A DNA stretch of 64,000 nucleotides, from positions 62,001 to 126,000 of the forward strand of contig JAIOYW010000011.1 of the NCBI GenBank assembly GCA_021740915.1, read 5' to 3'. This document shows, piece after piece, positions 42,191 to 59,642 of the stretch. This DNA is from Ignavibacteriales bacterium (GTDB lineage Bacteria; Bacteroidota; Ignavibacteria; Ignavibacteriales; Melioribacteraceae). The notes beneath the pieces are model-generated. The model saw only the letters and a program-made list of their open reading frames with translations. It searched no databases and had not been told where the DNA came from. Position numbers and translations under genes: made by a program. The first letter of the stretch is position 1, and each line of letters begins with the position of its first letter.

Positions 42191-43297
42191 ATGAAAAAAT
42201 ATTTGCCTTTTTTTACTGTTTTCCTTTCCATTCTGATAATTGGTTGTGATAAAAAGCAAAATTCAAACCTATCAGACGAGCAGAATATTGATATTTCAGT
42301 AAATCCGACCGTGGAACTATTTAGTTTAATACATCATCTTGCCGGTGACAAGCAATACAATGAAAACCTGATTCCAGATTATCTTAAAAAAGTTGATAGA
42401 CATTTTGAACACCTGAAAAATCATTCCGCTATTAATTTTGCAAAAGAATGCAACAGTCTGTTTCAGATCAATGGCGATGCACCAATGGCTTTGGCAGTCT
42501 ATATCGGGCAGCCTCCACAATTAGAACCTAAAATAAACTTGTCAGCTTTGCCAAAAGACTTTGACCCCCGATGGGATTCAACACTTATCAGCAATTATCT
42601 CAAACATGCCAGAGAGTTTGCTGTTGAAAGTGAATTTATGAAATTTCACATTAAACAGAATGAGTTTCATAAAGAGTCAGTTGAAAACTTAAAAGAGATG
42701 TTTTTCAAAGAGAATATCATAGAACGGTTTTTCACATTCTTTGGATATTATCCGGACAACTTCAGGATAAATATTGCCCTGCTTAATGGCAGTTGTAACT
42801 ATGGTTATAAAACAGAATTGCCTGATGGTAAAATTGAATCGGTTTGTTTACTTGGAGCAAGAGACCCAAAATGGTTTCAAAGTACCCCTACTTATAGTAA
42901 AAAATGGTTTTTACCTGTAATTATCCATGAGTTTTGTCATTCATACATTAATCCCCTGATTATCAGCAAGCCCGAAGAATTTAAAGCTATCGGAGATACT
43001 ATTTTAAAATCACATTATGATGCAATGAGAAAAAAAGGATATGATGTCTGGAATGTCGTCCTCAATGAGTACCTGGTCCGAGCCTGTACTATTAAGTTTC
43101 TCAAAGAGCATGAGGGAATTGATGAGGCGGAAAGAAATATAAAAAATGATAAATTGAATGGGTTTGTAGAAATAGAAGGTTTGGTTCAATTACTGGAGGA
43201 GTATGAAAACCACCGAAATGAATACCCGGAAATAGAATCCTTTTTGCCGGAGATCAAAAAGTATTTTAAATCAAAAATTTTTAACAATGAAGAATAA
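42191..43297 (+). CDS. DUF4932-like lipoprotein, putative zinc metallopeptidase
   Basis: 368 residues. Lipoprotein signal with lipobox I-I-G-C (cysteine near residue 19). The central domain carries I-I-H-E-F-C-H-S-Y (about 251-259), the HExxH zinc-binding motif, with further acidic residues downstream (N-E-Y-L-V-R-A). Length and the G-Y-Y-P-D-N-F and G-A-R-D-P segments match DUF4932 proteins. Anchored outside the cytoplasmic membrane. First gene of the plus-strand array, starting 27 bases after the GTTA junction of the duplicated element. Confidence 0.8.
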   Translation: MKKYLPFFTVFLSILIIGCDKKQNSNLSDEQNIDISVNPTVELFSLIHHLAGDKQYNENLIPDYLKKVDRHFEHLKNHSAINFAKECNSLFQINGDAPMALAVYIGQPPQLEPKINLSALPKDFDPRWDSTLISNYLKHAREFAVESEFMKFHIKQNEFHKESVENLKEMFFKENIIERFFTFFGYYPDNFRINIALLNGSCNYGYKTELPDGKIESVCLLGARDPKWFQSTPTYSKKWFLPVIIHEFCHSYINPLIISKPEEFKAIGDTILKSHYDAMRKKGYDVWNVVLNEYLVRACTIKFLKEHEGIDEAERNIKNDKLNGFVEIEGLVQLLEEYENHRNEYPEIESFLPEIKKYFKSKIFNNEE

Positions 43298-43475
43298 TAA
43301 CACGCAAAAAAAACATAGGGCAAAAAGCGCTAAATTAGAACATCGTAACAATTAATAAACGGCTTGGTAACTTGACAGGCAGGCACTTCGAAATGCCAAA
43401 CGTTTCATATTGCCAATCCGTTAGCGGCAAGTTGATCACAGAAAATCAGAATAACTATTAAAAAAAGATGAAAGA
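43298..43475 (+). repeat. Spacer with attC-like arm
   Basis: Follows the DUF4932 stop at once with AATAACACGC and ends with GCCAATCCGTTAGCGGCAAG, a GTTAG core as in attC outer arms. The arms pair only partly (GCCAAACG and CGTTAGCGG elements), so this is the weakest of the plus-strand sites. Confidence 0.4.
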
Positions 43476-44684
43476 ATGAAATCTGAATTTGCTATTATTT
43501 TATTTTTGACCACCGTTATATTTTACAATAACAGCATAGGACATGTTACAAATAGTACAAAAACTTCAATTGACAGTCTAATTGAAGTAATAATGAAAGA
43601 AACTGGAATAGTTGGGATTGGAGCATCTCTCATCGTTGATAAAGAAGTGGTTTGGACAAAGGGTTATGGCTATGCGGATAATGAAAATAAAATACCTTTT
43701 ACGCCCACAACGATAATGAATATTGCTTCAATTAGTAAGACTTTTACAGGAGTATGTATAATGAAAGCAGTTGAAGATGGAAAAGTTTCGCTTGACGAAG
43801 ACATCAACAGATATTTGCCTTTCAAAGTAATTAATCCCAATTGTCCCAATGACAAAATAACATTACGGCATTTGGCAACTCATACTTCAGGGTTGGTTGA
43901 CAGACATCCAATTTATAGTGAGCACTATTTCTATGACGGTAAAAAGCCAGAACCTTTGGGCGAGTTCTTGAAAAGTTACTTTGTACAAGGTGGCAAAAAC
44001 TATTCAAACGACAATTTTTTAAATGCAAAGCCCGGTGAAAACAGAGCTTATTCAAATATTGGAGCAGGTTTAGCAGGATATATTGTTGAATTACAAACTG
44101 GTATGAAGTTAAATGACTATGCCAAAAAAAATATTTTCAAACCACTAAAAATGTCAAATACAGGCTGGGCTTTATCTGAAATAAAGATTGAAAATCATTC
44201 AAAGCTTTACAGAAAAAAAGGCGATAATATTGAACAAATCCAATTTTATGAATTAACAACCTATCCTGATGGCGGAGTAAGAACCTCTGTAAGTGAATTA
44301 TCTAAATTTTTCATTAGCCTTTTAAACGATGGGAAATATAAGAACACACGAATTTTGAAAAGTGAAACTGTTGAAGAAATGCTTCGTTTTCAATATACAG
44401 AGACCAATTCACCTGAAAATGTGAACATAAAAAAGCTTAATCAAGGTATTTTTTGGGCTACCAAATTAGGTGCAACCCGAATAGGGCATAACGGTTCTGA
44501 CCCGGGTGTCAGAACTTTTATGCTTTCGGATTTGACTAAAGAAATTGGGGTAATTATATTTTTCAATACAGAATTAAATGATGAAAATGAAGGTAAATTC
44601 TTTGATATTTATGAAGAACTGTACAAATATGGAGAAGGCTTAAAAACAAAACAACCAGCCGCTAACAGCGTGTATAAGAATTAG
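43476..44684 (+). CDS. Serine hydrolase of the class C beta-lactamase/PBP4* family
   Basis: 402 residues with an N-terminal signal (about 1-22). Active site S-I-S-K (SxxK, about residue 87), Y-S-N (about 191, after N-R-A) and a late I-G-H-N-G in the position of the third motif identify a serine beta-lactamase-like hydrolase (esterase, D-aminopeptidase or peptidase; not necessarily antibiotic resistance). Its C-terminal codons overlap the first arm of the next attC-like site (44658-44777). Accessory gene in a cassette-like position. Confidence 0.85.
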   Translation: MKSEFAIILFLTTVIFYNNSIGHVTNSTKTSIDSLIEVIMKETGIVGIGASLIVDKEVVWTKGYGYADNENKIPFTPTTIMNIASISKTFTGVCIMKAVEDGKVSLDEDINRYLPFKVINPNCPNDKITLRHLATHTSGLVDRHPIYSEHYFYDGKKPEPLGEFLKSYFVQGGKNYSNDNFLNAKPGENRAYSNIGAGLAGYIVELQTGMKLNDYAKKNIFKPLKMSNTGWALSEIKIENHSKLYRKKGDNIEQIQFYELTTYPDGGVRTSVSELSKFFISLLNDGKYKNTRILKSETVEEMLRFQYTETNSPENVNIKKLNQGIFWATKLGATRIGHNGSDPGVRTFMLSDLTKEIGVIIFFNTELNDENEGKFFDIYEELYKYGEGLKTKQPAANSVYKN

Positions 44685-44777
44685 CGACTTGAGTGCTAAA
44701 TAAAAGGTCAGTGCCAGGCTGAAAATCAAGTGCTTTTTAATCCGCTGCTGCTCATACAAGAGACCGTTATATGCCGC
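44658..44777 (+). repeat. attC-like recombination site
   Basis: First arm GCCGCTAACAGCGTGTATAAG (quoted 20: CCGCTAACAGCGTGTATAAG) begins at 44658 inside the 3' end of the hydrolase gene. The second arm CTGCTCATACAAGAGACC and GTTATATGC ends at 44774. TAAC, GTATA-AG and GC blocks pair with a few unpaired bases in the second arm. Length about 120. Confidence 0.7.
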
Positions 44778-44818
44778 ATGTTAAAAAAGCTGTTTCGCTG
44801 ATAAATCATGAGTTTAAA

Positions 44819-45526
44819 ATGGAAAATATCATAGATAAAATTCGAACCGAATTAGAACATAGTATTGACGAGAAAACTCAGGCGACAAGTCAAAATTTCT
44901 TCAAAGAAAAGATAGAGTTTTATGGTGTCAAGGTTCCAATTGTAAACAAGATTAGTAAGGAGTATTTTAAACTGATTGATTTTAAAACTAAATCAGAAAT
45001 ATTTAACCTCTGCGAGATTTTATGGCAATCGGGATTTATAGAAGAATCATTTATTGCCTGTAATTGGTCATATTATATTCATAAAAAATACGAGCCGGGA
45101 GATTTTCAAATATTTGAGAAATGGATTAATACTTACGTAAATAATTGGGCTTCGTGTGATACATTATGTAATCATACGATAGGTGAATTTATTGAGATGT
45201 ATCCTGAGTATTCAATAAGGTTAAAAGATTTTGCTAAATCGGATAACAGATGGCTGCGCCGTGCTTCATCAGTAACTTTGATTATACCAGCCAGAAAGGG
45301 AAAATTTCTCAATGAGATACTCGAAATTGCAGATATTTTGCTGCTCGATAAAGATGATTTGGTTCAAAAAGGGTATGGATGGATGTTAAAAGCTGCCAGC
45401 GAAAAGAACCAACGTGAAATCTTTGATTATGTAATAAAAAACAAATTCACTATGCCTCGTACAGCATTACGATATGCGATTGAAAAAATGCCAAAGGACT
45501 TGAAAAGCAAGGCTATGGAGAGATAA
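44819..45526 (+). CDS. DNA alkylation repair protein, AlkD-like
   Basis: About 235 residues from the ATG at 44819 (MENIIDKIRTELEHS). A frame reaching 44771 would start inside the attC arm and is less likely. Helical HEAT-like repeats with F-Y-G-V-K-V-P, N-W-A-S-C-D (the W-D region), R-W-L-R-R-A-S and Q-K-G-Y-G-W-M-L-K match the AlkD/DNA alkylation repair family, glycosylases removing bulky or charged alkylated bases. Flanked by attC-like sites on both sides, consistent with a one-gene cassette. Confidence 0.85.
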   Translation: MENIIDKIRTELEHSIDEKTQATSQNFFKEKIEFYGVKVPIVNKISKEYFKLIDFKTKSEIFNLCEILWQSGFIEESFIACNWSYYIHKKYEPGDFQIFEKWINTYVNNWASCDTLCNHTIGEFIEMYPEYSIRLKDFAKSDNRWLRRASSVTLIIPARKGKFLNEILEIADILLLDKDDLVQKGYGWMLKAASEKNQREIFDYVIKNKFTMPRTALRYAIEKMPKDLKSKAMER

Positions 45527-45576
45527 GTCTGACAAATAAAAAATGACTGAAATGATATTACAAATGCACGATGGCA

Positions 45577-45712
45577 CAGCAAGCAGTTATAAAACATTGG
45601 GGGCGAAGTTGTTATTCACGCCTCGGTTCTCTCGTCATAGTTCATTATACTTTTATTGTGAAGCAGCTCCGAAAACCACCGCTGCTCATACATGCAACCG
45701 TTGTACCTGACC
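45577..45712 (+). repeat. attC-like recombination site
   Basis: First arm AGCAGTTATAAAACATTGGGGG shares GTNATAAAACATTGGGGG with the site at 59807. The far arm CTGCTCATACATGCAACCGTTGTACC resembles the far arm at 44750-44774. Quoted segments are limited; arms lie at 45581-45602 and 45682-45708. Length about 135. Confidence 0.65.
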
Positions 45713-45759
45713 CTGAAAAAAAGACAACATAAGATTAAACCTTCGAAAAAAGTTGAAAC

Positions 45760-46416
45760 ATGATTACAAAACCAAGAGTAAAAATCTGCTGCATAAAGAG
45801 TATTGAAGAAGCGAAAATGGCAATTGAATACGGCGCTTCTGCATTAGGTTTGGTTGGTCATATGCCAAGCGGACCAGGTATAATAGGAGATGAACTCATT
45901 TATCAAATTGCCAAAGCAGCGCCGCCGCCTATTTCAACATTTTTACTGACGAGTGAAACGAAACCACAGGATATTATACTGCATTATCGAAGGGTAAACA
46001 CTACGACAATTCAGATTGTGGACGAGTTAGAAAACCGGGAGTATAAATTGCTCAGGAACGAATTACCTAACGTTAAATTGGTGCAGGTCATTCACGTAAT
46101 TGACGAAAATTCAGTAAAAGAAGCCATTGAAATATCTGATTTTGTTGATGCAATTTTATTGGACAGCGGAAACCCTAATTTAGCGGTCAAAGAATTGGGC
46201 GGAACAGGAAGAACTCACAATTGGGAACTGAGCCGGGAAATAAGAAAATCAATTCCAATTCCTTTGTTTCTTGCCGGCGGACTTAACAAAGACAATGTAA
46301 GCCTGGCAATTAAAACAGTTGAGCCTTTTGGACTTGACCTTTGCAGCGGCGTTAGGACAGATGGAAAACTTGACCGCCAAAAACTTAAAGACTTTTTTAA
46401 TGCAATTGGATACTGA
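45760..46416 (+). CDS. trpF: Phosphoribosylanthranilate isomerase-like protein (orphan TrpF)
   Basis: 218 residues, a TIM barrel. V-K-I-C-C-I starts strand 1 (usual V-K-I-C-G, catalytic Cys present), D-A-I-L-L-D-S-G carries the catalytic Asp, and G-G-T-G-R-T-H-N-W plus F-L-A-G-G-L form the phosphate-binding loops. The enzyme isomerises phosphoribosylanthranilate in tryptophan synthesis. No other trp gene is nearby and it sits between attC-like sites, so it may be a paralogue with a different substrate. G to C in the first motif and the M-P-S-G-P loop in place of the usual S-P-R are deviations. Confidence 0.8.
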   Translation: MITKPRVKICCIKSIEEAKMAIEYGASALGLVGHMPSGPGIIGDELIYQIAKAAPPPISTFLLTSETKPQDIILHYRRVNTTTIQIVDELENREYKLLRNELPNVKLVQVIHVIDENSVKEAIEISDFVDAILLDSGNPNLAVKELGGTGRTHNWELSREIRKSIPIPLFLAGGLNKDNVSLAIKTVEPFGLDLCSGVRTDGKLDRQKLKDFFNAIGY

Positions 46417-46439
46417 AACAAACGGCAAAAAGAAGGGTG

Positions 46440-46525
46440 AAGGCACAACATTGTATAGGCGATAATGCTCCCTATCAGCCGCACCCGGCTTATATTAAAC
46501 ATTACGCAGCAGGCTTTACTAATAA
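46440..46525 (+). repeat. Possible attC-like spacer
   Basis: Contains GCACAACATTGTATAGGCG near 46443 and TTAAACATTACGCAGCAGG near 46497. ACATTGTATA recurs in the far arm of the next spacer (47477-47486). Pairing between arms is weak, so the call is tentative. Confidence 0.35.
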
Positions 46526-46560
46526 ACAGGTCGAAATTTTAATTTATTTTTGGAATAATT

Positions 46561-47352
46561 ATGAATCAACTATTATCAATTTTTATGCTTTTATTATTAT
46601 CCTTTCATAATATGGAATTAACGGCTCAGAAATATGAATTGGTGTGGTCAGAAGAATTTGACACACCGGGCAATGTAAACCCGGAATTTTGGGCTTTCGA
46701 AGAAGGATATGTGCGCAATAATGAGAAGCAGTACTACACCGAAAATCGTGCTGAAAATTGTCGTGTTGAGAATGGTATATTGGTCATAGAAGCCAGAAAG
46801 GAGAATTACAAAAATTCCGACTACTCTTCAGCCAGCATCACAACACAGAACCTTAAAGAGTTTCTTTACGGAAGAATTGAAGTGAAAGCAAAACTTCCCT
46901 CCGGCAGAGGTATGTGGCCCGCTATATGGACCTTGGGGAGCAATATTGAGAAGGCGGGCTGGCCTTTATGCGGAGAAATTGATATAATGGAAAATGTTGG
47001 TTACGATCCCAATAAAGTCCATGGAAATATCCATACAAAATCGTTCAATCATAACCTTGGTACGAATAAAGGCAGCTTTGTAAAAGATGAAAGTCTTAGC
47101 GAAGAATATCACATATATGCTATAGACTGGACTCCCGAAAAAATTGATTTTTTTCTGGATGACAAGAAATATTTTACTTTTAATAATGATAAGAATGGGG
47201 ATCAGGATTCATGGCCCTTCGATAAACCGCAATATTTGATTTTAAACCTTGCTGTCGGAGGATTTTGGGGAGGCAGGGAGGGCATAGATGACAATATCTT
47301 TCCTCAATTTTTCAAAATTGATTATGTCCGATATTACAAAATTGTGGAATAG
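46561..47352 (+). CDS. Glycoside hydrolase family 16 protein
   Basis: 263 residues, with a signal peptide (about 1-22) and a single GH16 domain. The catalytic motif E-I-D-I-M-E (about 140-145) contains nucleophile and acid/base glutamates, with upstream L-V-W-S-E-E-F and P-S-G-R-G-M-W-P-A-I-W-T-L and downstream L-I-L-N-L-A-V-G-G. The family cleaves beta-1,3/1,4-glucans, laminarin and galactans; substrate is unassigned. A secreted enzyme with no sorting domain, in a cassette-like position. Confidence 0.92.
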   Translation: MNQLLSIFMLLLLSFHNMELTAQKYELVWSEEFDTPGNVNPEFWAFEEGYVRNNEKQYYTENRAENCRVENGILVIEARKENYKNSDYSSASITTQNLKEFLYGRIEVKAKLPSGRGMWPAIWTLGSNIEKAGWPLCGEIDIMENVGYDPNKVHGNIHTKSFNHNLGTNKGSFVKDESLSEEYHIYAIDWTPEKIDFFLDDKKYFTFNNDKNGDQDSWPFDKPQYLILNLAVGGFWGGREGIDDNIFPQFFKIDYVRYYKIVE

Positions 47353-47383
47353 AATCAACACTGTGCAACTATATTTAAGGTGC

Positions 47384-47495
47384 ATGTCCGCCCAACACTC
47401 GGTATAAAAAGATGCAGGGATAGCAGGTTATTCACGGATTGCAGCCCCAAATCCCTTTCCGGGCATATTGTCAAACATTGTATATCTGCTAAATA
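47384..47495 (+). repeat. attC-like recombination site
   Basis: First arm CGCCCAACACTCGGTATAAA contains GCCCAAC, matching RYYYAAC. The last arm ends in CAAACATTGTATATCTGC. Inner pairing AGGGAT/ATCCCT (near 47416 and 47455) is present. About 110 bases, just after the GH16 gene. Confidence 0.55.
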
Positions 47496-47526
47496 AGAAT
47501 GTGCATATAATTAAACAGGAAATAAT

Positions 47527-48096
47527 ATTAAGAACGAATTAACAACCAAATATTTCATTGATAGAAAAGAAAGGAGAACATGGCTCGAAACTAATTTTGA
47601 GACAGAAGATGAAATTTGGCTGGAGTATCCGGTTAAGAAGACAGGTAATAAACGAATCTTATACAATGATGCGGTTGAAGAAGCTCTTTGTTTTGGATGG
47701 ATTGATAGTACTATTAAATCACTTAACAAAGATACCATTATTCAAAGATTTTGTAAGAGAAGAGAAAACTCCACATTCTCACAACCAAACATTGAACGAT
47801 TGAAATGGCTCTTTGAAAAAAATTTGATTCACAATTCTATTAGGAAAGAAGTATTTAAAATAATTCAACAAAAATTCGTTTTTCCGGAAGATATAATAAA
47901 GAAATTGGAAGTAGATAAGGTTGTTTGGGAAAATTATAAAGCCTTTTCAGAACCATATAAACGAATCAGGATTGCATATATTGATAGTGCAAGAAAAAGG
48001 TCTGATGAATTCGACAAACGATTGAACAACTTCATTAAAAAGACAAAAGAGAATCATCTCATTAAAGGATTCGGGGGAATTGATAAATACTATTAA
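47527..48096 (+). CDS. YdeI/OmpD-associated family protein, probable ATT start
   Basis: Reading in one frame from 47515 (after a TAA at 47512) gives about 189 residues: F-I-D-R-K-E-R-R-T-W-L-E, E-I-W-L-E-Y, D-A-V-E-E-A-L-C-F-G-W-I-D-S and R-F-C-K-R-R are hallmarks of the YdeI family, linked to resistance to antimicrobial peptides. There is no ATG, GTG or TTG at the expected N-terminus. ATT at 47527 lies six bases after ACAGGA and would give the family-typical length. The next usual start is TTG at 47800, which loses half the domain. Either a rare ATT start is used or the gene lost its ATG. Confidence 0.75.
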   Translation: MKNELTTKYFIDRKERRTWLETNFETEDEIWLEYPVKKTGNKRILYNDAVEEALCFGWIDSTIKSLNKDTIIQRFCKRRENSTFSQPNIERLKWLFEKNLIHNSIRKEVFKIIQQKFVFPEDIIKKLEVDKVVWENYKAFSEPYKRIRIAYIDSARKRSDEFDKRLNNFIKKTKENHLIKGFGGIDKYY

Positions 48097-48180
48097 CGGT
48101 AGAACTGCTGTCAAAATTTTGCTTATTTCGTTGTTTGTCAGCCAAGAAAAAACTGCACACAATCTTAAAAAGGAAATACT

Positions 48181-48390
48181 ATGAAGAAAAAAATATGTGT
48201 GTTTCTATTTGATGGGTATTCTGATTGGGAAATATCTTATTTGACTCCGGAGATTATTAAAGATGAACGGTTTGATTTGGTTTATTTCTCTGAGACTGGA
48301 AATGAAGTAACTTCAATGGGCGGCTTACATGTGATTCCAACTACATCACTCGATAATTTGAAAATTGAAGAGGTGCATTTGTTAATATAC
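48181..48390 (+). pseudogene. DJ-1/PfpI family gene, 3'-truncated
   Basis: The first 70 or so residues (K-K-I-C-V-F-L-F-D-G-Y-S-D-W-E and the E-T-G-N-E-V-T-S-M-G-G region) match the N-terminus of DJ-1/PfpI glutamine-amidotransferase-like proteins. After L-L-I-Y-C the similarity stops and the frame ends at 48423. The nucleophile-elbow cysteine half of the domain is missing. Downstream sequence belongs to a different gene remnant (48391-48843), so the two were joined by recombination. Confidence 0.75.
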
Positions 48391-48843
48391 TGCTTCACAG
48401 ATTCGGAAAAAATGGTTTTATAAATATTGATCATGTTTATAAGAATCACGATATTGTTAGTTCATGGAAAATTTTTGTACCGTATTCAAGTCCGGGAGAC
48501 GATTCATATCCACATTTAATTCTTAGTAGACCAATTGTCGCTGGACCAAATACTTGTTGGACTGAAACTTTTCTAGTTGTAGGCCCATTTACAAATGAAA
48601 ATATTGCTAAAAATGTGGCAGGTTATATGACTACGTCGTTTTTACGTTTTATGATTTTACTTGCAAAAAGCACACAACATATCACAAAAAAACTATGTAT
48701 TCGTTCCACAACAGGATTTTACCGAAACCTGGACAGACGAAAAACTTTACGCCAAATACGGCTTAACATCCGAAGAAATTGCATTTATCGAGAGTATGAT
48801 CCGCCCGATGGATATAGCGAAAAATGGCAGCGAAAATGAATAA
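48391..48843 (+). pseudogene. C-terminal remnant of an Eco57I-type restriction-modification protein
   Basis: From about 48391 the frame reads R-F-G-K-N-G-F-I-N-I-D, then W-K-I-F-V-P-Y-S, T-C-W-T-E-T-F-L-V-V-G-P-F and S-T-Q-H-I-T-K-K. It then continues in another frame as Y-V-F-V-P-Q-Q-D-F, T-W-T-D-E-K-L-Y-A-K-Y-G-L and I-E-S-M-I-R-P-M-D. This is the end of Eco57I-like methylase/endonuclease subunits. The frame break lies in a run of seven As near 48688-48694. The catalytic N-terminal part is absent. Its stop overlaps the start of the DUF1016 gene, the order found in intact loci. Confidence 0.75.
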
Positions 48844-49915
48844 TAAAAACCTGTCTCTGTCTCCGGCGGATACAAATTCATTATATGGCGAAATTAAAGA
48901 ATTAATTGAGCAGAGCCGTCAGCAAGTTGCAGTAACGGTTAATTCTGCTTTATCAATGCTTTACTGGCAGGTGGGAAAATGCATCAACGATCATATTTTA
49001 GGGTACCGGCGCGCAGGTTACGGGGAACAGATCGTACAAACTCTTTCCGTTCAATTGAGTGTTGAATATGGAAAGGGCTGGAGCGAAAAGCATCTCCGGC
49101 ATTGTCTTCGCGCTGCGGAGACTTTCCCCGACCGGCAAATTTTCTACGCACTGAGTAGAGAATTGAGCTGGACTCATTTACGTTCATTTATTTATATCGA
49201 CAGTCCGGTAAAAAGAGAATTTTACATTGAAATTTGCAAGCTTGAAAAGTGGAGCACAAGAACATTGCAGGACCGGATTAATTCAATGCTTTTTGAGCGC
49301 ACAGCCATCAGCAAAAAACCCGAACTTACAATTCAGAACGATCTGGCAAAGCTCAAAAAGGAGAGACAATTATCGCCGGACCTTGTATTCAGAGACCCAT
49401 ATCTTCTTGATTTCCTGGGATTGAAGGATACCTATTCCGAAAAAGATCTGGAAACTGCCATACTAGTGGAATTACAAAAATTTATTATAGAAATAGGTTC
49501 CGATTTTGCTTTTATGGCACGTCAGAAAAGAATAATAATTGACAATACAGATTATTATATCGATTTGCTTTTCTTCCACCGTCGGTTGAAATGCCTGGTG
49601 GCAATAGAGTTAAAACTGGAAAAATTTGAGGCTGCACACAAAGGTCAGATGGAATTGTATCTCCGCTGGCTCGAAAAACACGAAAAGATGCCGGATGAAA
49701 ACCTTCCTGTTGGTTTAATACTTTGTGCAGCAAAAAACGAGGAACATATAGAACTTATGCAATTGGAGAAAAGCAATATAAAAGTTGCAGAATTCCTTAC
49801 AAAATTGCCTGAAATGAAAATCCTTGAGCAAAAACTTCAAATTGCAATTGAAATTGCAAGGAATAGAACAAAGCAAACCGATGAGCAAAAAAGAATTTTC
49901 CCACACCGGCAGTAA
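48836..49915 (+). CDS. PDDEXK nuclease-domain protein, YhcG/DUF1016 family
   Basis: About 359 residues from the ATG at 48836. The N-terminal DUF1016 helical domain (about 15-150; Y-W-Q-V-G-K-C-I, G-W-S-E-K-H-L-R-H, L-S-W-T-H-L-R) is followed by a PD-(D/E)XK nuclease domain (about 185-340) with Y-Y-I-D-L-L-F-F-H-R-R and L-V-A-I-E-L-K-L. The family occurs next to restriction-modification genes and is regarded as defence-related. Here the partner upstream is only a remnant of an Eco57I-type gene. Confidence 0.9.
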   Translation: MNNKNLSLSPADTNSLYGEIKELIEQSRQQVAVTVNSALSMLYWQVGKCINDHILGYRRAGYGEQIVQTLSVQLSVEYGKGWSEKHLRHCLRAAETFPDRQIFYALSRELSWTHLRSFIYIDSPVKREFYIEICKLEKWSTRTLQDRINSMLFERTAISKKPELTIQNDLAKLKKERQLSPDLVFRDPYLLDFLGLKDTYSEKDLETAILVELQKFIIEIGSDFAFMARQKRIIIDNTDYYIDLLFFHRRLKCLVAIELKLEKFEAAHKGQMELYLRWLEKHEKMPDENLPVGLILCAAKNEEHIELMQLEKSNIKVAEFLTKLPEMKILEQKLQIAIEIARNRTKQTDEQKRIFPHRQ

Positions 49916-49959
49916 ATTATCTGTATCATGATTTTTGGGATTAAAAGATTTGCAGGATT

Positions 49960-51609
49960 ATGGCAAAAATAACAGTTGAAAAAGCGGAGATAAGCATAAT
50001 AACGGTAGCAGAGCGCGATTACATTTCGCTCACAGATATGGCCAACGCCAGGGAAAGCGGGAGCCGTGCCGCTGATATAATTAAAAATTGGCTGAGGACA
50101 CGCTACACACTTGAATTTTTGGGCACCTGGGAGCTAATCCACAATCCCGATTTTAAAGTGGTGGAATTTAACCACTTTAAAATGCAAGCCGGTTTACCCG
50201 GCTTTGTGATGAGTGTTTCAGAATGGATCGATAAAACCAATGCTATCGGTATTATCGTAAAAAAAGGAAAGTACGGCGGCACTTATGCCCATAAAGACAT
50301 TGCATTTGAATTTATGTCAATCCAAAAAATAGAAATTTTAAAAAGCCTCGTTTATAACGGGGCAAAAAAGAAAAAACTTGAAATAACAGACCTGGTTTTA
50401 GATAGGATTTCTCTTGAGCTTTCTATAATTGAGAATAAAGGTTTTGCAGATTATTTTATACTTTACTCTCGAATAATTGAAATTTGCAATGAGCTTAATT
50501 TAGTGCGATCTCCTGGAAGAGGTAGTGCCGCAGGTTCTTTAATTAATTATTGTTTAGACATAACAAAGCTTAATCCTCTAAATCATAGTTTAATCTTTGA
50601 AAGATTTATTAATTACAAAAGAACCAAATCACCTGATATTGACATAGACATACCTAAAGGATACCAAAACAAAGTAATCAACATACTAAAGCAAAAATAT
50701 CAAGAATATAATACTTATTTTATTGCTTTTACACCTCAAAGGGAATCAGACTACGAAGACATTTTTTATAATAATATTTCATATAAAAAACACCCTTGCG
50801 GTATTGTTATCATAAATGAAACACTGACAGATTCAGTTATTAATTATAAAAATCAAGAATACTATCTTGTTTCAGACATTTCAAAAGATAGAGTATATTC
50901 CAATAAAATAGATATTTTAGAACTTGGTTATTTAAATAGGCTTCAGCTAATTGTTGAGCAAATTGGGAAGGAATACCATCCATTCAACATACCTACTAAT
51001 GATAAATCGGTTTTTGCTTTATTGTCGCGCGGTGAAAATGAAAATATCTTTCAGTTTAATACTCCACCAATGTGTAGGATTTTGAGTGATTTTAAGCCAG
51101 AAAATATAAATGACTTATCCGTATTAAATGCAACTTATAGACCTGGTCTGTTAGAATTAATACCAAAGCTAATTGAAAGCAAGAATTATAATTATGAGCG
51201 TTTCCGAAATCCTTTAATAAATAAGCTATTGGAAGAAACATATGGAATTTTAGTTTACCAAGAGACATTCCTAGAATTGCTAAACCAAATAGCCGGTTTT
51301 TCATATGAAGTTGCTGATATTTGGAGAGTAAAACTTTTTAAGTCAAAATCTAATGATACTACAAATTTATTGAGTGATTTTTTTGAAATCTTCACAAAGA
51401 AAATCAATTATTTATGTAAAAAAGATGTCATTAGATTACTGGATATGATTGAGAATAATCTTAATAGGACCTTTCTAAAATCACATTCATTAAGCTATTC
51501 ATTAATTGGATATTGGGGAGCCTTCTACAAAATTCATTTTAATTCAGTTTTTGAAAAAATATTTAGTCAAGATATAAACTATGAAACCTTTGAATTTTAT
51601 AAAAGTTAA
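49960..51609 (+). CDS. KilA-N domain fused to a minimal DnaE-type DNA polymerase core
   Basis: 549 residues. Residues 1-117 are a KilA-N DNA-binding domain (Y-I-S-L-T-D-M-A, W-L-R-T-R-Y-T-L-E-F-L-G, G-G-T-Y-A-H-K-D-I-A) that stops short of its usual end. From about 120 the sequence is C-family polymerase III alpha: S-P-G-R-G-S-A-A-G-S (about 184), the catalytic P-D-I-D-I-D (about 225), third Asp in K-I-D-I-L-E-L-G (about 315), I-F-Q-F-N, Y-R-P-G-L, E-T-Y-G-I-L-V-Y-Q-E, K-S-H-S-L-S-Y-S-L-I. PHP, OB and clamp-binding parts are absent and the finger region is shortened. An in-frame ATG at 50314 could start the polymerase part alone. Composition shifts to AT-rich at about 50300. Not a known family to me. 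Confidence 0.75.
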   Translation: MAKITVEKAEISIITVAERDYISLTDMANARESGSRAADIIKNWLRTRYTLEFLGTWELIHNPDFKVVEFNHFKMQAGLPGFVMSVSEWIDKTNAIGIIVKKGKYGGTYAHKDIAFEFMSIQKIEILKSLVYNGAKKKKLEITDLVLDRISLELSIIENKGFADYFILYSRIIEICNELNLVRSPGRGSAAGSLINYCLDITKLNPLNHSLIFERFINYKRTKSPDIDIDIPKGYQNKVINILKQKYQEYNTYFIAFTPQRESDYEDIFYNNISYKKHPCGIVIINETLTDSVINYKNQEYYLVSDISKDRVYSNKIDILELGYLNRLQLIVEQIGKEYHPFNIPTNDKSVFALLSRGENENIFQFNTPPMCRILSDFKPENINDLSVLNATYRPGLLELIPKLIESKNYNYERFRNPLINKLLEETYGILVYQETFLELLNQIAGFSYEVADIWRVKLFKSKSNDTTNLLSDFFEIFTKKINYLCKKDVIRLLDMIENNLNRTFLKSHSLSYSLIGYWGAFYKIHFNSVFEKIFSQDINYETFEFYKS

Positions 51610-51642: not shown

Positions 51643-51697
51643 TACATATTTGCAATTCGCACAAGCCTACACATTGACCAAAAATTGCAAAAGAGCC
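51643..51697 (+). repeat. 55-bp dispersed repeat, copy A
   Basis: Pattern CATATTTGCAATTCGCACAA then GCC, a variable middle, and AAAATTGCAAAAGAGCC. Four plus-oriented copies (A-D) occur only around the mini-DnaE, Zorya and DUF2130 genes. TTGCAA at both ends gives weak dyad symmetry. Confidence 0.8.
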
Positions 51698-52019: not shown

Positions 52020-52195
52020 TAAATTGCGGATAATTATTATTTTAAGACACGGTGAAGAAAATTGTTAAGGCATTAATAATAACCGTGAAACGCTGTTATT
52101 CGGTTTTTATGTAGTTTTGCAGGTTTTTCCCGTAATATATATGATATTTTATAACTTATATTCCTACTATATATAATGGGTATAGCGGGAAGTTA
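52020..52195 (+). repeat. Duplicated element, copy 2 (ends at G-TTA)
   Basis: Second copy of the element at 42026-42163, slightly longer. Conserved blocks include GCGGATAATTATTATTTTA and GGGTATAGCGGGA; similarity ends at GTTA (52192-52195). In this copy the sequence after the junction leads to the Zorya operon. Confidence 0.6.
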
Positions 52196-52332: not shown

Positions 52333-52387
52333 ACACATTTGCAAATCGTACAAGCCGTCTCACAAGCCAAAATTTGCAAAAGAGTGC
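52333..52387 (+). repeat. 55-bp dispersed repeat, copy B
   Basis: CACACATTTGCAAATCGTAC then AAGCC and AAAATTTGCAAAAGAG. It ends 32 bases before the zorA start, so it may lie in the zorA leader. Confidence 0.8.
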
Positions 52388-52419: not shown

Positions 52420-54210
52420 ATGAAATTTATAGACAGATTAATACCATTCTTAAACAATGAAGTTTTTGAAGAAAATATGCTCACTGCATATTGGGTAATT
52501 GTGTTGATTGTAATATTTATTGTAGCATTAGTTTACTTGCAAATTCATTTCTTTAAAATCAAAAAGAATATAAATCTATTACAATCTTCAAAAAGTAAGA
52601 AATTACAAAAAATATGGGATGCATATCAAGGAACATTTTGTGATTATGGAAACAACCGTAAAACTATTGAGTTCTCTGAAACATATTTTAATGAGCAGAA
52701 TATCTTATATTTTTGTTTGAATCTACGTGTTGTTAACAACGTTTCCAATTCTCTTATTGGATTTGGAATTTTAGGAACTTTTGTCGGTTTGACTTATGGA
52801 ATTGCGGATTCAAATTTTGAAACCACAGAAGCAATCAAAGGTAGTATAAATAATCTTCTTGCAGGAATGGGTACTGCTTTTGTCTCCTCAATTTGGGGTA
52901 TGGGGCTTTCATTAGTATTTGCCAATATATTTAAAATTTGGCAGTCTAAGATTACGAAAAGCATACAAAAATTATGTTTGCAATTAGATGAAGAATATAA
53001 AATAAAACAACACGACCTAGAAATTTTTCATCAAAACAACCAAAGAAAAATAATTAATGAAATTTTCAACGAATATCTTGTCGCTGAGACAGATGAGGGA
53101 AAACAATTACCTAAGAATGTATTTCGTCAATTGTTAGATGAATCAGTTAAACAGACAGCTTCATTGCAAACGTTTTCTGACGACTTAGGTGAGAGTATTA
53201 ATTTGGCAATGGAAAAACTTGTTGCAGATAATAATGAACAAATAAGCCAGTTAATTGAACAAAAGCTTGTTCCTGTACTTGAAGATTTAAAACAAATAAA
53301 GCAAGATTCAGGTACGCAAGTAATTGAAAATGCAGTTGATAGATTGGCAAATTCGATGAAATCAATGATGGAAGAGTTTAAAAGTACTGTGACAAGTGAC
53401 ACTAAGAATGAAATGGAAGGACTTATTAAGAGGCTAACAGTTGTCTCCGAATCTCTCTCAGGAATTCCAGATTCAATGACAGATATAACACTTCAGGTTA
53501 CTGAAGTCATTGAAGCATTAAAAGAAACAGTTATTGAGAATATAAATCAATCACGGACACAAGCACAAGAAATTAGTAAGCAAAATCAAGAAACATTCTC
53601 TGCAGCTACTAATGAATATAAATCAACAGTTGAAGATATACAAGCACATATGGAATTGTTACTTTCAACACAAAAAGACAATATAAAGCAGGTTTCTGAA
53701 TTAACTGATGAAATTAAAGCCACTCTTACTCAAAACAGTCAGGTAAATCAGCAATTTGACTCAATGATTCAGAAATCCAAAATCGTTGCTCAATTGATTG
53801 AAGATGTATCAAATAAATTTGAAAACAACTCTAATTCCCTTTCTGAAGCTTCAAATAATCTAAAGTCTTCAATTTCTCATTTTGGTGAAAGTATAAATAC
53901 GTACATCGATAGAAATGAAAATCTGCTTATTGAGCAGGAAGAAACATTATTGAAAACTAAGGACATTGCAGCGGAATACGGCAGTCGGTTTGAAACTATT
54001 GAAAGTGGTTTATCAAGTATCTTTGACCAAATTCAATCAGGACTTAAAGATTATCAAAAAACTACCGCAGAAAACTTAAATAAATATTTAACAGAATTTT
54101 CCACTACTCTATCAAAGGCTCATGAAGGTTTAGAAAGTACTGTGGCAGGTTTAACTGAAATAAATGAAGAATTAACTGAGCAAATAGATAAACTGGTTGC
54201 CATCAAATGA
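52420..54210 (+). CDS. zorA: Zorya protein ZorA, MotA-like proton-channel subunit
   Basis: 596 residues. Three membrane helices are clear (about 20-45, 107-130 and 145-170) and the G-I-L-G-T-F-V-G-L-T and G-M-G-T-A-F-V-S-S-I-W-G-M segments are the MotA/ExbB-like signature. Residues 200-596 form a long predicted coiled coil (Q-E-I-S-K-Q-N-Q-E-T-F repeats), the tail characteristic of ZorA. With ZorB it forms a membrane motor that detects phage infection and passes the signal to the cytoplasmic effectors. The stop overlaps the zorB start by four bases. Confidence 0.9.
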   Translation: MKFIDRLIPFLNNEVFEENMLTAYWVIVLIVIFIVALVYLQIHFFKIKKNINLLQSSKSKKLQKIWDAYQGTFCDYGNNRKTIEFSETYFNEQNILYFCLNLRVVNNVSNSLIGFGILGTFVGLTYGIADSNFETTEAIKGSINNLLAGMGTAFVSSIWGMGLSLVFANIFKIWQSKITKSIQKLCLQLDEEYKIKQHDLEIFHQNNQRKIINEIFNEYLVAETDEGKQLPKNVFRQLLDESVKQTASLQTFSDDLGESINLAMEKLVADNNEQISQLIEQKLVPVLEDLKQIKQDSGTQVIENAVDRLANSMKSMMEEFKSTVTSDTKNEMEGLIKRLTVVSESLSGIPDSMTDITLQVTEVIEALKETVIENINQSRTQAQEISKQNQETFSAATNEYKSTVEDIQAHMELLLSTQKDNIKQVSELTDEIKATLTQNSQVNQQFDSMIQKSKIVAQLIEDVSNKFENNSNSLSEASNNLKSSISHFGESINTYIDRNENLLIEQEETLLKTKDIAAEYGSRFETIESGLSSIFDQIQSGLKDYQKTTAENLNKYLTEFSTTLSKAHEGLESTVAGLTEINEELTEQIDKLVAIK

Positions 54211-54911
54211 GTAAGAAAATAATTGAAATAGAAGATGACAATCAATTCAGCCTTTCTACAGGAGACCTAATGGCTGCATTATTATTAATCTTTGTTCTCT
54301 TATTGATTGGAACAATGTTAAGATTACAGGAAGAATTTGATAGTAAAAGTGATATTGCTGAGAGATATAAAGAACTTCAGATAGAACTTTATAATGATCT
54401 GTACAATGAATTTGAAAAAGATCTTGTGAAATGGGACGCAGAAATTGATTCAACACTTACAATTAGATTTAAAGAACCTGATGTGCTTTTTGATGCAGGT
54501 AGTTCTAATCTCCAAAATTCATTTTCTGATATTTTGAATGATTTTTTCCCTATGTATATTAAAGTCCTACAAAATCAAAAATATATAGCCCACATTGAAG
54601 AAATTAGAATTGAAGGGCATACTTCAATAGAAGGACGATATGGCATGGATGAACAAGAAGCATATTTCTACAATATGGAATTATCACAAGATAGAACACG
54701 TTCAGTTTTACAATATTGCTTAACCCTTTTAGATAATGACAAAGAACTATGGACAAGAAAAAGAGCAACAGCAAATGGTTTATCTTCGGTAAAACCAATT
54801 GCCGAAAATGAAACAGAGGCAGGAAGAAAGCAAAATCGAAGAGTTGAATTTAGAATAAAAACCGATGCAGAAGAGCAAATAAGAGAAATGCTAAGATATG
54901 CAGAAAATTAA
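54207..54911 (+). CDS. zorB: Zorya protein ZorB, MotB-like with OmpA domain
   Basis: 234 residues. A short cytoplasmic N-terminus, then S-T-G-D-L-M-A-A-L-L-L-I-F: the Asp at residue 20 at the start of the only membrane helix (20-42) is in the position of the essential ion-carrying Asp of ZorB/MotB. Residues about 130-230 are an OmpA-type peptidoglycan-binding domain (I-R-I-E-G-H-T-S, L-S-Q-D-R-T-R-S-V, N-R-R-V-E-F-R-I). It anchors the ZorA motor to the wall. Overlaps zorA by four and zorC by 14 bases. Confidence 0.92.
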   Translation: MSKKIIEIEDDNQFSLSTGDLMAALLLIFVLLLIGTMLRLQEEFDSKSDIAERYKELQIELYNDLYNEFEKDLVKWDAEIDSTLTIRFKEPDVLFDAGSSNLQNSFSDILNDFFPMYIKVLQNQKYIAHIEEIRIEGHTSIEGRYGMDEQEAYFYNMELSQDRTRSVLQYCLTLLDNDKELWTRKRATANGLSSVKPIAENETEAGRKQNRRVEFRIKTDAEEQIREMLRYAEN

Positions 54912-56301
54912 AGAAATATTAAATTGGCATTTTAACACAGGGGATTTTAAATACACTGCTGAACATCTTTTCTCTGAACATACTAAAAAGAAGATCAATG
55001 AAACAATAATCTCATTAAACAAATTGACAGACAGACTAAAAGATGGCAGTGAACTTCCTGAAAAAAAATTAATTAAAGATGTATATGATTTATTTTTAGG
55101 AAATTATCAAAACCCATCATTTTCCATTAGTAAAAGAGATGTTCGTGCCTTAATTTGGGCATTAGATTTTCAACCAAGTTCAGATAATGAGATAATATTG
55201 TTTTCAAATAAATTGGATTCGGCTATATACTTAATTTCTCACAATTGGAAAGATTCTTTTATTATAAGCCTATGGCATATTCTATTAAAGAATTGGTCTA
55301 ATTTGTTGATTTTTGAAGACCAACGTATAACTTTAATACGATTACTTGAAGAAAAATGCAAGAGATATAATAAAGGAAGAAAAGATATTTTAAAAATCTC
55401 AACCCAAATAGACTTGTTCTTACAAAATGATTCTCCCCATAAATTTGCAACATTGCTCTTTAAGAGGAATATTCTGATAAGTTATGCTTACGAGCTATTA
55501 AATCAGAAAGAACATATAATTAATTACGATTATTTTGCTTCTGTAGTAAATGAATATATTATCCTAATTGGAAATAAGAATAATAATTCTGAGCTAATCT
55601 CAGGAGTATATATGTTTTTGCATAAGCATAACAATAAGAAAACCAGCTTGATAATTTGTTCTCAAATTATAAATCAAGAAAAATTCAATAACAATGAAGA
55701 AATAATAAAGAATGAAACTGTAAAGCTTATTGGAGACCCGGTTAAGGTATATGAATGGAGATATAGTGAGCTTAAAGAAAAAGAACAACAAGAAGTTGAA
55801 CAAGCAAGAAAAAAATTAAATATTCTTCTAAATAAACATTTCATTGATGTTTTCTTCGAAAGATTAGTCCAAGATGACAGACGAAAAAAATATTGGACAA
55901 AATTTATTAATAAAATAGATGATATAAAATTTAGTGGAAATAAAGCCAATTATCGATATTTAAAGACCATTGAAAGCGTGTCTAAATATGTTGATTATAG
56001 GTATAAAATTACCTCACGTAATCAGAGTACTTGTGCTTTAATAATTTATTCAAAAAATTTCGTCTTTGTAGAGTTCACTGATACAGGAGCTTTATATATC
56101 TACAAAAAACAAAATTTTAATGTTAATCTCAACGCAATTGATTCCATGGAAGACTTAAAAACATGGTCAGCCTATAAGTATGCCTGTAAAAATGCGGAAC
56201 AAAGCGGATACATATATTTAAATGAAGAAGGACGAATTACACATCAAGGTTATTGGGAATCAAGATTTGATGCATGGATGAGAAAATACTATTATGATTA
56301 A
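54898..56301 (+). CDS. zorC: Zorya type I protein ZorC
   Basis: 467 residues, cytoplasmic, helical, AT-rich. By itself it has few recognisable motifs. W-T-K-F-I-N-K-I-D-D-I-K-F and C-A-L-I-I-Y-S-K-N-F-V-F-V-E-F near residues 340-395 are consistent with the EH-signature domain of ZorC, a DNA-binding effector. The assignment rests mainly on position: between zorB and zorD, overlapping both (14 and eight bases). Somewhat shorter than the E. coli protein. Confidence 0.78.
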   Translation: MQKIKEILNWHFNTGDFKYTAEHLFSEHTKKKINETIISLNKLTDRLKDGSELPEKKLIKDVYDLFLGNYQNPSFSISKRDVRALIWALDFQPSSDNEIILFSNKLDSAIYLISHNWKDSFIISLWHILLKNWSNLLIFEDQRITLIRLLEEKCKRYNKGRKDILKISTQIDLFLQNDSPHKFATLLFKRNILISYAYELLNQKEHIINYDYFASVVNEYIILIGNKNNNSELISGVYMFLHKHNNKKTSLIICSQIINQEKFNNNEEIIKNETVKLIGDPVKVYEWRYSELKEKEQQEVEQARKKLNILLNKHFIDVFFERLVQDDRRKKYWTKFINKIDDIKFSGNKANYRYLKTIESVSKYVDYRYKITSRNQSTCALIIYSKNFVFVEFTDTGALYIYKKQNFNVNLNAIDSMEDLKTWSAYKYACKNAEQSGYIYLNEEGRITHQGYWESRFDAWMRKYYYD

Positions 56302-59300
56302 AATTAATTATCATAACGACTACTTAGAACTGTATTATGAAACTCCGCAAGGAGATATAGTGGAATTCGAGCACTGGTTATCTGTAATGGATAATCCAAT
56401 ATATTTCAATGTTCTTAATGATTTAATTGTAAACGGCATTGCAAATTTTATTGACCCAAAACGCATTTCAATTTATTATGAGGACATATCTCAGATTGAT
56501 AGTTTTGAGTATAAAGCATTGGGCTTCCCGGAACAATACCCTTATGATATATTTTTAGATATATCAGGTGGTGGGTTAAGAGATATTAATTTGAAAATAC
56601 GCTTCTATTTTCAGGATTTTGCTCATGGCAATGGATCCGGAGAAAATCTCTTTTTTGATAAGCATAGAATCGGAGCCTATCTTAAAAATGAACTCGAATT
56701 TTTGTTAAGTTCAAAACAATTTGTCCTATTAAGTGAGATTAAAAGATTTAATCAAATCCAATTTTTAAATTCAACTTCTGTTCTGAAAGAGTTATCGAAA
56801 ATTCAAGAACTTGCAGTACAGGCAAATGCAGTACTTTCAAAAATTCTAATTGACACTTCAATCATTGCTCCCCAAAAAATAAAATTTGAAATATCATCAA
56901 TTGGTAATGATAGATATAAACTGTCTCCAATTATTGAGAATATTGATACTAAGAAATTTCAAAATTCATTCGAATTATTTCCAAAAGTAAAATCAGAATA
57001 CAGTATCAAGGATAACAACAAGAAAGTAAGAATTGTAATTAATGAAGAAGAAAATGAAGAATCCCAAAGCTTAAAGAAAGAACTTCAGAAACTAAAACAA
57101 CAAAACAAATTCACTGGAGACGAATTAAACGATGTTTACAATAATCTGACTAAGTTTTGGGATGCAGACATTATTGATTTAGATGATTTTAGCAAGAGAG
57201 TTTTGGAACTTGGGATCTACAAGCCTCGTTTCTATCCCTTTATTAGCCCATATAAATCAGAATGGATTCCCGGTATTGTGATTGAAGATAAGAAAGAAGG
57301 AACCAGACACGTTACAATTAAAAATATTAAAGAACTTGAAGAACTAAAACTATTAGTAAATGTAAGCAAAAATGAAGGACGCAATTCGGTTTCATTCAAA
57401 GGGGAGGATATCGATTTAACTCATATTGATTCTATAATAGAAAATGCACAAAATCAACTAAAGAATACTAAGACACCAATTACAACATTAGAAAAGGAAA
57501 GAGACAAGCCTGATTCTCAAACAAAGGTGCTTATTATAAAAGAAAATGCTGAAGAAAATGAATATACAGAAGCAAGTAACTTTTTTGAAGATGTTAGTTA
57601 TAAATTTCATGAAGTAAATAATTTGTCAACTGACATTCAACTTAAAGAGCATCAAAAAAATGGTATTGCATGGCTTCAAACTCTTTCGACTGAGCCATAT
57701 TTATTACCCGGAGTTCTTCTCGCTGATGACATGGGGCTAGGTAAAACTTTACAAGTTCTTTATTTTATTGAGTGGTATTGTCAAATTCATAAAAATAAAC
57801 CAGTATTGATTGTTGCTCCTGTATCTTTATTAGAGAATTGGCAAAATGAATATGAAAAGTTTTTCCCTGTACCAAGTTTAAAAACTTTCACTTTGTGGGG
57901 TAGCAATGTCAAAAACTATATAATTCCTAACAATAAACAACACACGATAAGTAACCTTAGCGATTCAGCTATTTATCTTACAACTTATGAAACACTTCGA
58001 AAACAACAAATTCCATTGGGGCTTATTGACTGGGGTGTTGTTGTTCTTGATGAAGCACAAAAAGTCAAAACTCCTGGAACATTTGTAACGAATGCCGCAA
58101 AAGCATTAAAAGCAGGTTTTAAGATTGCAATGACGGGAACACCAGTTGAAAATTCGTTAATGGACTTGTGGTGTATAATTGACTTTTGTAGTCCAGGATT
58201 ACTTGAAAATGCTAAATTGTTTTCAAAACAGTTTCAAAAACCGCTTAATAATGAGAACGTTAATTTAGAAGAGTTATCAGAAATCCTAAGAAATCGTATT
58301 GGCGCAACACTTTTGAGAAGAATGAAATTTGATGTAGCAAAAGATTTACCTTCAATTGAGTATTTTAAACATAATGAAGCTATGCCTAAAATACAATTTG
58401 ATTCCTATTTGAATGAATTGAATTGCATTGAAGAATTAAAAAAGAAGAACGAATCATCAAGCCCAGTTTTGCAAGGTATTTTTAATTTAAGAAGTATTTC
58501 TGACCATCCTTATTTAAAACATTACCAAATAGAAAATATTGAGATTGAGAAATTAATTAATAGTTCAGCTAAACTAAAGAAAGTAGTTTCGATATTATCA
58601 GAAATAAAGCAAAAAGAAGAGAAAGCGATTGTTTTTACTGAAAATAAGTCAATGCAAAGAGTTTTAAGAAAAACAATTACTGAATATTTCAAGATAATTC
58701 CATCTATCATAAATGGTGAAACACCTACAAATAAATCAAAATTTGATAAATCAAAACTAACACGACAGCAAGAAATTGATAAATATCAAAAAGTTAAAGG
58801 TTTTAATGTCATTATAATATCTCCGGTAGCTGCAGGTTTTGGCTTAAATATTACCGAAGCTAATCATGTAATTCATTATACACGCCATTGGAATCCTGCA
58901 AAAGAACAACAAGCTACAGATAGGGCATATCGGATAGGACAAAAGAAGCCTGTTAAAGTTTATTATCCTTTTGCAATAGCTCCTAACAACAAATTAAAGA
59001 CCTTTGATATTATCTTGGATGAATTGTTGCATAGGAAATCGCATCTTGCAACTAGCACATTATTTCCAACTGAACAAATTGAAATTAGTAAAGATGATTT
59101 TATTAATTCCATGAATTTTGATTCATCACAAAGAAAAGCTTTAGAAATTACTAATATAGAAGATTTAGACCGTTTAACACCGTTATCATTTGAAGCAGCA
59201 ATTGCAATACTGTTTGAAAAAAAATTCGATGGAAAATCCTATCTAACTCCTATCTCTAACGACAAGGGTGCAGATATTATATTTTTTGGAGATACAACAA

Positions 59301-59569: not shown

Positions 59570-59588
59570 GCCACCGCACTCAGCCAAG

Positions 59589-59642
59589 CACATTTGCAAT
59601 TCTCACGAGCCAACGCTCAAACCAAAGGCTTGCAAAAGAGCT
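59589..59642 (+). repeat. 55-bp dispersed repeat, copy C
   Basis: CACATTTGCAATTCTCACGA then GCCAACGCTCAAACCAAAGG and CTTGCAAAAGAGC. It begins 20 bases after the zorD stop codon. Confidence 0.8.

Follow-up and report, generated by a model that had tools for sequence, protein, structure and literature searches.

A thumbless mini-DnaE gene joined to a truncated KilA-N gene beside a Zorya-like operon in an Ignavibacteriales genome

The stretch of Ignavibacteriales DNA analyzed here (64,000 nucleotides; the window) contains, at 49960-51609 on the forward strand, a single open frame encoding a protein of 549 aa in which a KilA-N piece (residues 1-118) is followed by a DnaE-like core (residues 119-549) (Table 1). 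Pfam placed KilA-N (PF04383) at residues 13-120 of this protein, the NTPase (palm) domain of the Pol III alpha subunit (PF07733) at residues 126-256 (E 1.8e-42), and the finger domain (PF17657) at residues 328-476 (E 4.4e-29). A Zorya type I-like operon, zorA to zorD, was recognized by PADLOC downstream of the polymerase part (52420-59569, forward strand); in NCBIfam, all four of its genes fall below, or are without, the curated cut-offs. For the ZorB protein, the PADLOC ZorB2 model gave a better score (256.4 bits) than the best ZorB1 model (201.1), though zorC and zorD are of the type I kind. Proteins encoded in the window carry T9SS-type sorting signals, which would fit an Ignavibacteria-like member of Bacteroidota. 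Within the open frame, GC drops from 0.378 (50000-50499) to 0.28-0.30 beyond, and third-position GC differs between the KilA-N part (0.449) and the polymerase part (0.218). The corresponding values are 0.391 for the YhcG gene upstream and 0.188-0.229 for zorA to zorD, and because those of the polymerase part and the Zorya genes are alike, these genes may have come from one type of donor. A first-pass annotation made from the sequence had described a KilA-N domain joined in one frame to a C-family replicase core, with a shift in composition near 50300 and a defense system alongside, and each of these observations was borne out.

Table 1. Features of the KilA-N/mini-DnaE locus and the adjoining Zorya genes (window coordinates)
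Feature	Position	Strand	Basis and remarks
Decayed Eco57I-type methylase remnant (C-terminal part)	48464..48791	+	69% DNA identity to L073 6347-6676; frames broken
YhcG/DUF1016 nuclease gene	48824..49915	+	PF06250, PF17761; between methylase remnant and KilA-N fragment; absent there in L073
KilA-N gene fragment, codons 1-118	49960..50313	+	Cut within the KilA-N domain; in frame with mini-DnaE
Mini-DnaE gene	50314..51609	+	431 aa; palm and fingers, without PHP, thumb, and C-terminal domains; Pfam, homologues, clade, model
Catalytic Asp codons 1 and 2 (PDIDID motif; mini residues 108, 110)	50635..50643	+	Sequence, aligned catalytic columns
Short low-confidence loop at the thumb site of other C-family enzymes (mini residues 140-161)	50731..50796	+	pLDDT <50; Asp2-Asp3 spacing
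Catalytic Asp codon 3 (KIDIL motif; mini residue 200)	50911..50913	+	Sequence, aligned catalytic columns
Codon of His 391 (mini numbering), in the column of the putative steric gate, E. coli H760	51484..51486	+	Kept in 3/3 minis
zorA	52420-54210	+	PADLOC ZorA, 95.8 bits
zorB	54207-54911	+	PADLOC ZorB, 256.4 bits
zorC	54898-56301	+	PADLOC ZorC, 58.8 bits
zorD	56294-59569	+	PADLOC ZorD, 1020.9 bits

Two stand-alone homologues of the polymerase part were found in 375 genomes of another class of the same phylum, namely L183 in genome G942 (E 9e-140; 428 aa, 52% identical to the window protein) and L184 in genome G938 (E 3.6e-98; 426 aa, 43% identical). Both begin in the same alignment column as the in-frame ATG at 50314, which the first-pass annotation had proposed as a start for the polymerase alone, and the ends of the three proteins (here called minis) agree within a few residues. 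There are no internal stops in their 431, 428, and 426 codons; a TAG seen at first look in a wider G942 alignment fell on the stop-codon side and was absent from the later search. In a tree of 33 rows, comprising the three minis, nine DnaE1 proteins of related genomes, six DnaE2, 11 phage or viral DnaE, and four other DnaE1, the minis formed one group with support of 100/100 on a long stem, and the six DnaE2 rows formed a group of their own (99/97) with the minis outside it. An earlier tree with the window sequence as the sole mini gave this protein the longest end branch (5.43). The minis have in common 35 residues that are invariant among them and are each present in fewer than 10% of the other rows. 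The annotation had recommended a search for a clade of stand-alone cores of about 430 residues; such a clade exists, although it numbers just three known members. The two homologues are complete genes that stand alone and not the frameshifted dnaE debris that the annotation had considered as the contrary outcome.

The codons of the three catalytic aspartates begin at 50635, 50641, and 50911, and the core also carries a GRGS motif and a KSH motif; among solved structures, its sequence is closest to Pol III alpha subunits (2hpi, E 2.3e-50). The spacing between the second and third aspartates is 89 residues in all three minis versus 131-161 in 30/30 other C-family rows of the 33-row alignment; it is 153-154 in the DnaE1 of nine related genomes and 144-156 both in 35 other rows of an earlier alignment and in the best 80 of 588 viral loci. 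Relative to those nine DnaE1 proteins, about 65 residues are gone between the two aspartates, a segment that we take to be the thumb by E. coli numbering, and the core begins at the first palm helix and stops just past the conserved block before the lost region. No Pfam match to PHP, helix-hairpin-helix (HhH), or OB was obtained in the window protein. The PHP domain (PF02811) was likewise without a match in L183 and L184, both of which start at the palm, and HhH and OB were without a match in all three minis; the two halves of a split DnaE in the same genome do match (L004 to PF02811, L005 to HHH_6). The annotation was right about the three aspartates and the absent PHP and OB parts, as well as about a loss of some 60 residues between the catalytic motifs, the lost part being the thumb.

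An AlphaFold model of the 431-aa mini, built on a 36-row alignment (pLDDT 82.3, pTM 0.85), contains the palm and fingers, with residues 140-161 forming a disordered loop at the thumb site. The superposition on DnaE palm and fingers that the annotation had suggested found the palm intact, the model aligning with Pol III alpha structure 4iqj at Z 39.9 (2.8 A over 407 residues, reaching 4iqj residue 848), with 2hnh at Z 36.5, and with PolC entries at Z 24.6-27.4. Foldseek returned the same families, the named viral models being mostly phage DnaE. Of the C-family features, then, the window protein has the three-Asp palm and the finger domain and lacks the thumb, PHP, and HhH/OB. Lacking the latter features, the minis are filed as a thumbless offshoot rather than as a DnaE polymerase, one that is C-family by descent and fold. 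The mini-DnaE gene of 431 aa, starting at 50314, is most likely the functional unit at the locus; it belongs to a rare, AT-rich, presumably accessory branch of the C family that consists of palm and fingers only, the clamp-binding part being gone along with PHP, thumb, HhH, and OB.

The window protein retains 35/36 of the columns that are invariant in 30 other polymerases and 59/78 of those conserved at 90% or more. By the same leave-one-out measure, DnaE2 rows retain 54/75 and 54/69, and phage and replicative rows retain from 58/69 to 65/67, so that for the 90% columns the constraint on the window protein falls in the DnaE2 range, under the phage and replicative rows. Conservation of at least 96% in the 30 others defines 44 columns, of which the window protein retains 40, L183 36, and L184 32. 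Differences between the window gene and L183 at codon positions 1, 2, and 3 are 0.357, 0.246, and 0.612, and in all three pairs of minis position 2 differs least and position 3 most, a pattern indicative of selection at the protein level. The genes are AT-rich, with GC of 0.278 in the window (0.376 for the window as a whole), 0.343 in L183 (0.422 in 5-20 kb of its contig), and 0.340 in L184 (0.348 for its 4.6-kb contig).

The active site is not equally preserved among the minis. The window protein and L183 keep D108, D110, and D200, and L184 has Val, Asp, and Asn at these positions and probably lacks classical activity. The Val and Asn at positions 108 and 200 suggest that catalysis may not be what selection maintains in the family. 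E. coli H760 has been proposed as a steric gate from structural modeling (PMC8485763). The aligned His is kept in all three minis, preceded by Ser in the window protein and by Ala in L183 and L184. All three minis carry Gln at position 118, where the 30 other rows have an invariant Arg, and L183 and L184 also have an altered GRGSxAGS loop. The window protein is therefore the most canonical mini and the best candidate for activity.

The minis are rare in every collection that was searched. Among 196 relatives, 194 gave matches at E 0.001 or better, yet except for the window's own the best was E 1.8e-37 or weaker, and none was a mini. At thresholds of E 1e-40 for the phylum (395 genomes) and E 1e-38 for the class (391 genomes), only the window's own mini was found, and no minis beyond those already known came from the family members of G942 (9) and G938 (10); these genome sets overlap, and where a list was long, scoring was confined to the top few candidates from the first look, so that very divergent members could escape. 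A search with a fingers fragment matched 101/395 genomes, and among the matches listed the open frames were at least 766 aa except for the window's own. Single-sequence scans of viral contigs found no mini, and profile scans found thumbed polymerases only (the best 80 of 588 loci, and 4 loci in another scan); a scan of genome contigs gave one match, an ordinary DnaE. In tblastn searches with the window protein, the top identity among the matches listed was 33.3% for plasmids (40 of 2021) and 33.7% for phages (30 of 1296), and with L183 it was 31.5% for plasmids and 32.3% for phages (six matches listed in each). The window gene had no blastn match in plasmids, and a 113-aa fragment spanning the thumb junction had one weak match in phages and none in plasmids. 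A literature search, with limited coverage of subscription papers and supplements, did not find such a protein described.

DnaE1 of the same genome (L002) and Pol III alpha have in common with the mini the palm and finger folds, the PDxDxD, KxD, and GRGS motifs, and the steric-gate His, at 33-35% identity over the common part. The mini differs from them in its size (431 aa versus about 1150 aa), in lacking PHP, thumb, HhH, OB, and C-terminal domain, and in belonging to a separate clade. PMC3919608 gives the conserved core of the C family as PHP-Pol3-(HhH)2, with PHP and (HhH)2 nearly universal across 1590 nonredundant sequences and the three catalytic aspartates (E. coli D401, D403, and D555) absolutely conserved, and describes thumbs that are reduced, not absent, in Thermotogae DnaE3, PolC, and Bacteroidetes DnaE2; four C-family groups are listed in PMC12926913. 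Bacteroidetes DnaE2 resembles the minis in its reduced thumb (PMC3919608) and in having accessory and plasmid-borne examples. However, the three examples compared here have a merely shortened thumb (spacing 131-132), are 983-1018 aa long, and lie beside dinB, and the minis do not group with them in the tree. PolX2 of the X family, as presented in PMC12926913, kept its polymerase core and lost PHP, which is an analogy of domain loss in a different family.

The KilA-N half of the frame has its closest counterpart in a related genome (G048), which carries a whole KilA-N gene of 270 aa (L073 6892-7704) in a locus that reads as restriction-modification-like, with an Eco57I-type methylase (PF07669, E 3e-37) on one side and a helicase matching T5orf172 and ResIII on the other. 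Codons 1-118 of the window frame (354 bases) are 83% identical to L073 at the DNA level, and homology stops at 50313, with none beyond. The window domain matches positions 9-87 of the 107 in the PF04383 model, and two whole genes reach positions 105 and 106 (L073, 2-106), the window domain being short by about 20 final model positions. Residues 3-121 of the window protein align with the PADLOC PDC-S22 profile (281 positions) as far as position 123 (from position 6; 172.6 bits). A KilA-N protein of the PDC-S22 type consists of a whole KilA-N domain and a C-terminal half; the window piece corresponds to the front of the profile, and the remainder is missing, the gene being joined instead to the polymerase core. 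Lineage-specific changes, counted with L074 as the outgroup and with sites dropped where the outgroup matches neither sequence, are 14 synonymous and 10 nonsynonymous in the window versus 17 and 2 in L073, counts that are small (Fisher p 0.039). In a model of the whole fusion, for which the alignment included only three KilA-N rows, KilA-N residues 55-121 have a pLDDT of <50. A second, whole KilA-N gene is present in the same genome (L075 499-4699, contig C13) directly after a PLD-SNF2 helicase gene, the two forming a defense-like pair.

These comparisons indicate that the KilA-N piece is a truncated gene and that the two halves of the frame have different histories. One of the readings offered by the first-pass annotation, in which recombination joined a mini-dnaE cassette to a KilA-N gene, is supported by the end of homology, the cut domain, and the change in composition. 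The join is most likely a recombination scar in a site of turnover of defense genes, and the fusion accidental; the mini-dnaE gene would have landed in a decaying restriction-modification-like locus right after KilA-N codon 118, and its translation could begin at the KilA-N start, giving a fusion, at its own ATG, or at both. Under this reading, the exact, in-frame agreement of the join with the native start codon of the mini is a coincidence; one possibility is that selection favored a mini gene expressed from the KilA-N leader. A real family of thumbless mini-DnaE proteins together with a chance KilA-N fusion is, overall, the probable explanation of the locus.

That the fusion is instead a functional protein, in which KilA-N is a DNA-binding module that stands in for the thumb and tethers the polymerase, is quite improbable. 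KilA-N domains bind DNA, a tether would benefit a thumbless core, and the 549 codons are open across a join that has no spacer or stop before the native ATG; however, the KilA-N domain lacks its last 20 or so model positions, the nonsynonymous changes are in excess in the window lineage, L183 and L184 are both without KilA-N, and none of the 30 other KilA-N genes with the motif continues into a polymerase (31 loci were inspected, of which L053 is motif-less, and L030 is not tabulated). With the gene cut inside its domain and no parallel among those 30, the suggestion that the fusion is purposeful was not supported. It is still less probable that the join at 50313/50314 was created in assembly and does not exist in the organism. 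The draft genome is in 35 contigs, and composition and homology both shift at one base, but the join is in frame, lies inside a 184-kb contig, and is not at a detected repeat. Decay of an ordinary dnaE, to which the missing N-terminal, internal, and C-terminal parts, the fast divergence (the long end branch noted above), and the degraded active site of L184 might point, is scarcely credible, as the start, the thumb excision, and the end are common to three genomes, 35 residues set the clade apart, codon position 2 is the most conserved in 3/3 pairs, and all three genes are stop-free. The idea of dnaE debris was rejected once the two stand-alone homologues turned up.

A further alternative to the chance fusion of a mini polymerase is that the family consists of nucleotide-binding pseudo-polymerases, serving as a sensor, a scaffold, or some other nucleotidyltransferase, perhaps in conflicts that involve phages or mobile elements. 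L184 has lost two of the three catalytic aspartates and retains the fold and the steric-gate His, every DNA-handling domain is gone in 3/3 minis, the distribution of these AT-rich genes is patchy, and the window mini adjoins Zorya. We nevertheless consider this reading rather unlikely, as all three aspartates are kept in the window protein and L183, PADLOC had no match for L183, L184, or the polymerase part of the window protein, and the readable parts of the mini loci have no neighbors in common. The fold of a non-polymerase nucleotidyltransferase was not favored, the matches of the model to OAS, Cid1, CCA enzymes, and DncV being weak (Z about 3 to 3.5).

Zorya adjoins one of the three mini loci, the other two being only partly assembled: L183 lies 178 bases from a contig end, and L184 is on a 4.6-kb contig. 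In the readable parts (4.6 kb of L184 and 20 kb on one side of L183), neither Zorya nor KilA-N nor any other shared neighbor was present, and the link to the neighboring defense system that the first-pass annotation had raised is not supported by these two homologous loci. Nor were imuA, imuB, or dinB found among the open reading frames read in the window, L183, and L184, the last two cut by contig ends. A defense role for mini-DnaE is unlikely. Upstream of both homologues (L183 1631-4379, L184 1377-4569) are strings of small genes with no gene in common, and the neighbors gave only weak matches to DUF6621, BrxB, and GRDP-like families, none of them informative.

If the mini is an enzyme, its palm residues Asp 108, 110, and 200 would bind two metal ions, in L183 as well as in the window protein, and the fingers would bind the incoming dNTP, with His 391 excluding ribonucleotides. 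A protein of this construction should transfer deoxynucleotides, and we regard the chances that the window protein does so as even. Because the thumb is absent, the grip on a primer-template duplex would be poor, which would favor distributive work, action on short gaps or single-stranded ends, or dependence on a partner that holds the DNA, in what would presumably be an accessory role. Somewhat against the balance of probability, we tentatively propose that the clade, devoid of thumb, PHP, and clamp contact, has left replication and translesion synthesis altogether for dNTP transfer that is partner dependent or template independent, as a horizontally spread gene of defense or mobile elements with at least one pseudo-enzyme among its members. 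A clade without PHP and the whole thumb that bears the marks of protein-level selection is a natural minimal C-family core. The minis make it testable what palm and fingers do alone, and whether the thumb serves catalysis or merely the holding of DNA, and they bear on whether replicase cores, like Pol-beta-like and reverse-transcriptase cores, have been recruited outside replication. The case also illustrates how a junction scar can present itself as a striking "fusion protein," the mini-DnaE half being the discovery and the KilA-N half most likely accidental.

The same genome contains a DnaE2-like polymerase split over contigs C26 and C31 and divided between palm and fingers. One half (L004 955-2652, reverse strand; 565 aa) comprises PHP and palm and lies beside a Y-family gene with IMS_C; the other (L005 1378-3051, forward strand; 557 aa) comprises fingers, HHH, and a weak OB. 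Many relatives give four matches per genome in the search for minis, so the split may be widespread. Another split C-family polymerase was seen on the environmental plasmid p_ACL01CRY2 (L160 2116-5911), where DnaE-like pieces extend across annotated hypothetical proteins.

Repeats are frequent around the locus. Members of a 52-base family occur after mini-dnaE (51644-51695), before zorA (52333-52384), and after zorD (59588-59639), so that direct repeats lie on both sides of the Zorya operon. A second repeat, with the core GGGTATAGCGGGAWGTT, has seven copies in the genome and none in a reversed-pattern control; two are in the window (42117-42163 and 52149-52195), and the others are on contigs C10, C13, C14, C22, and C35. 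Tyrosine-integrase matches, of which that on C35 is broken, are present within about 0.3 kb of the repeat on C22 and C35, and the sequence diverges directly after the core, as at an attI-like site. An integron is not claimed, because no integrase scored above the integron cut-off, and 14/14 control genomes also had matches below it. From about 42190 to 50310 there is a run of forward-strand genes of mostly unrelated functions, some of them broken, with short repeat-bearing spacers; presumably they encode, among others, proteins with a beta-lactamase-like fold and AlkD-like, TrpF-like, and GH16-like proteins, and the run looks like an acquired gene array.
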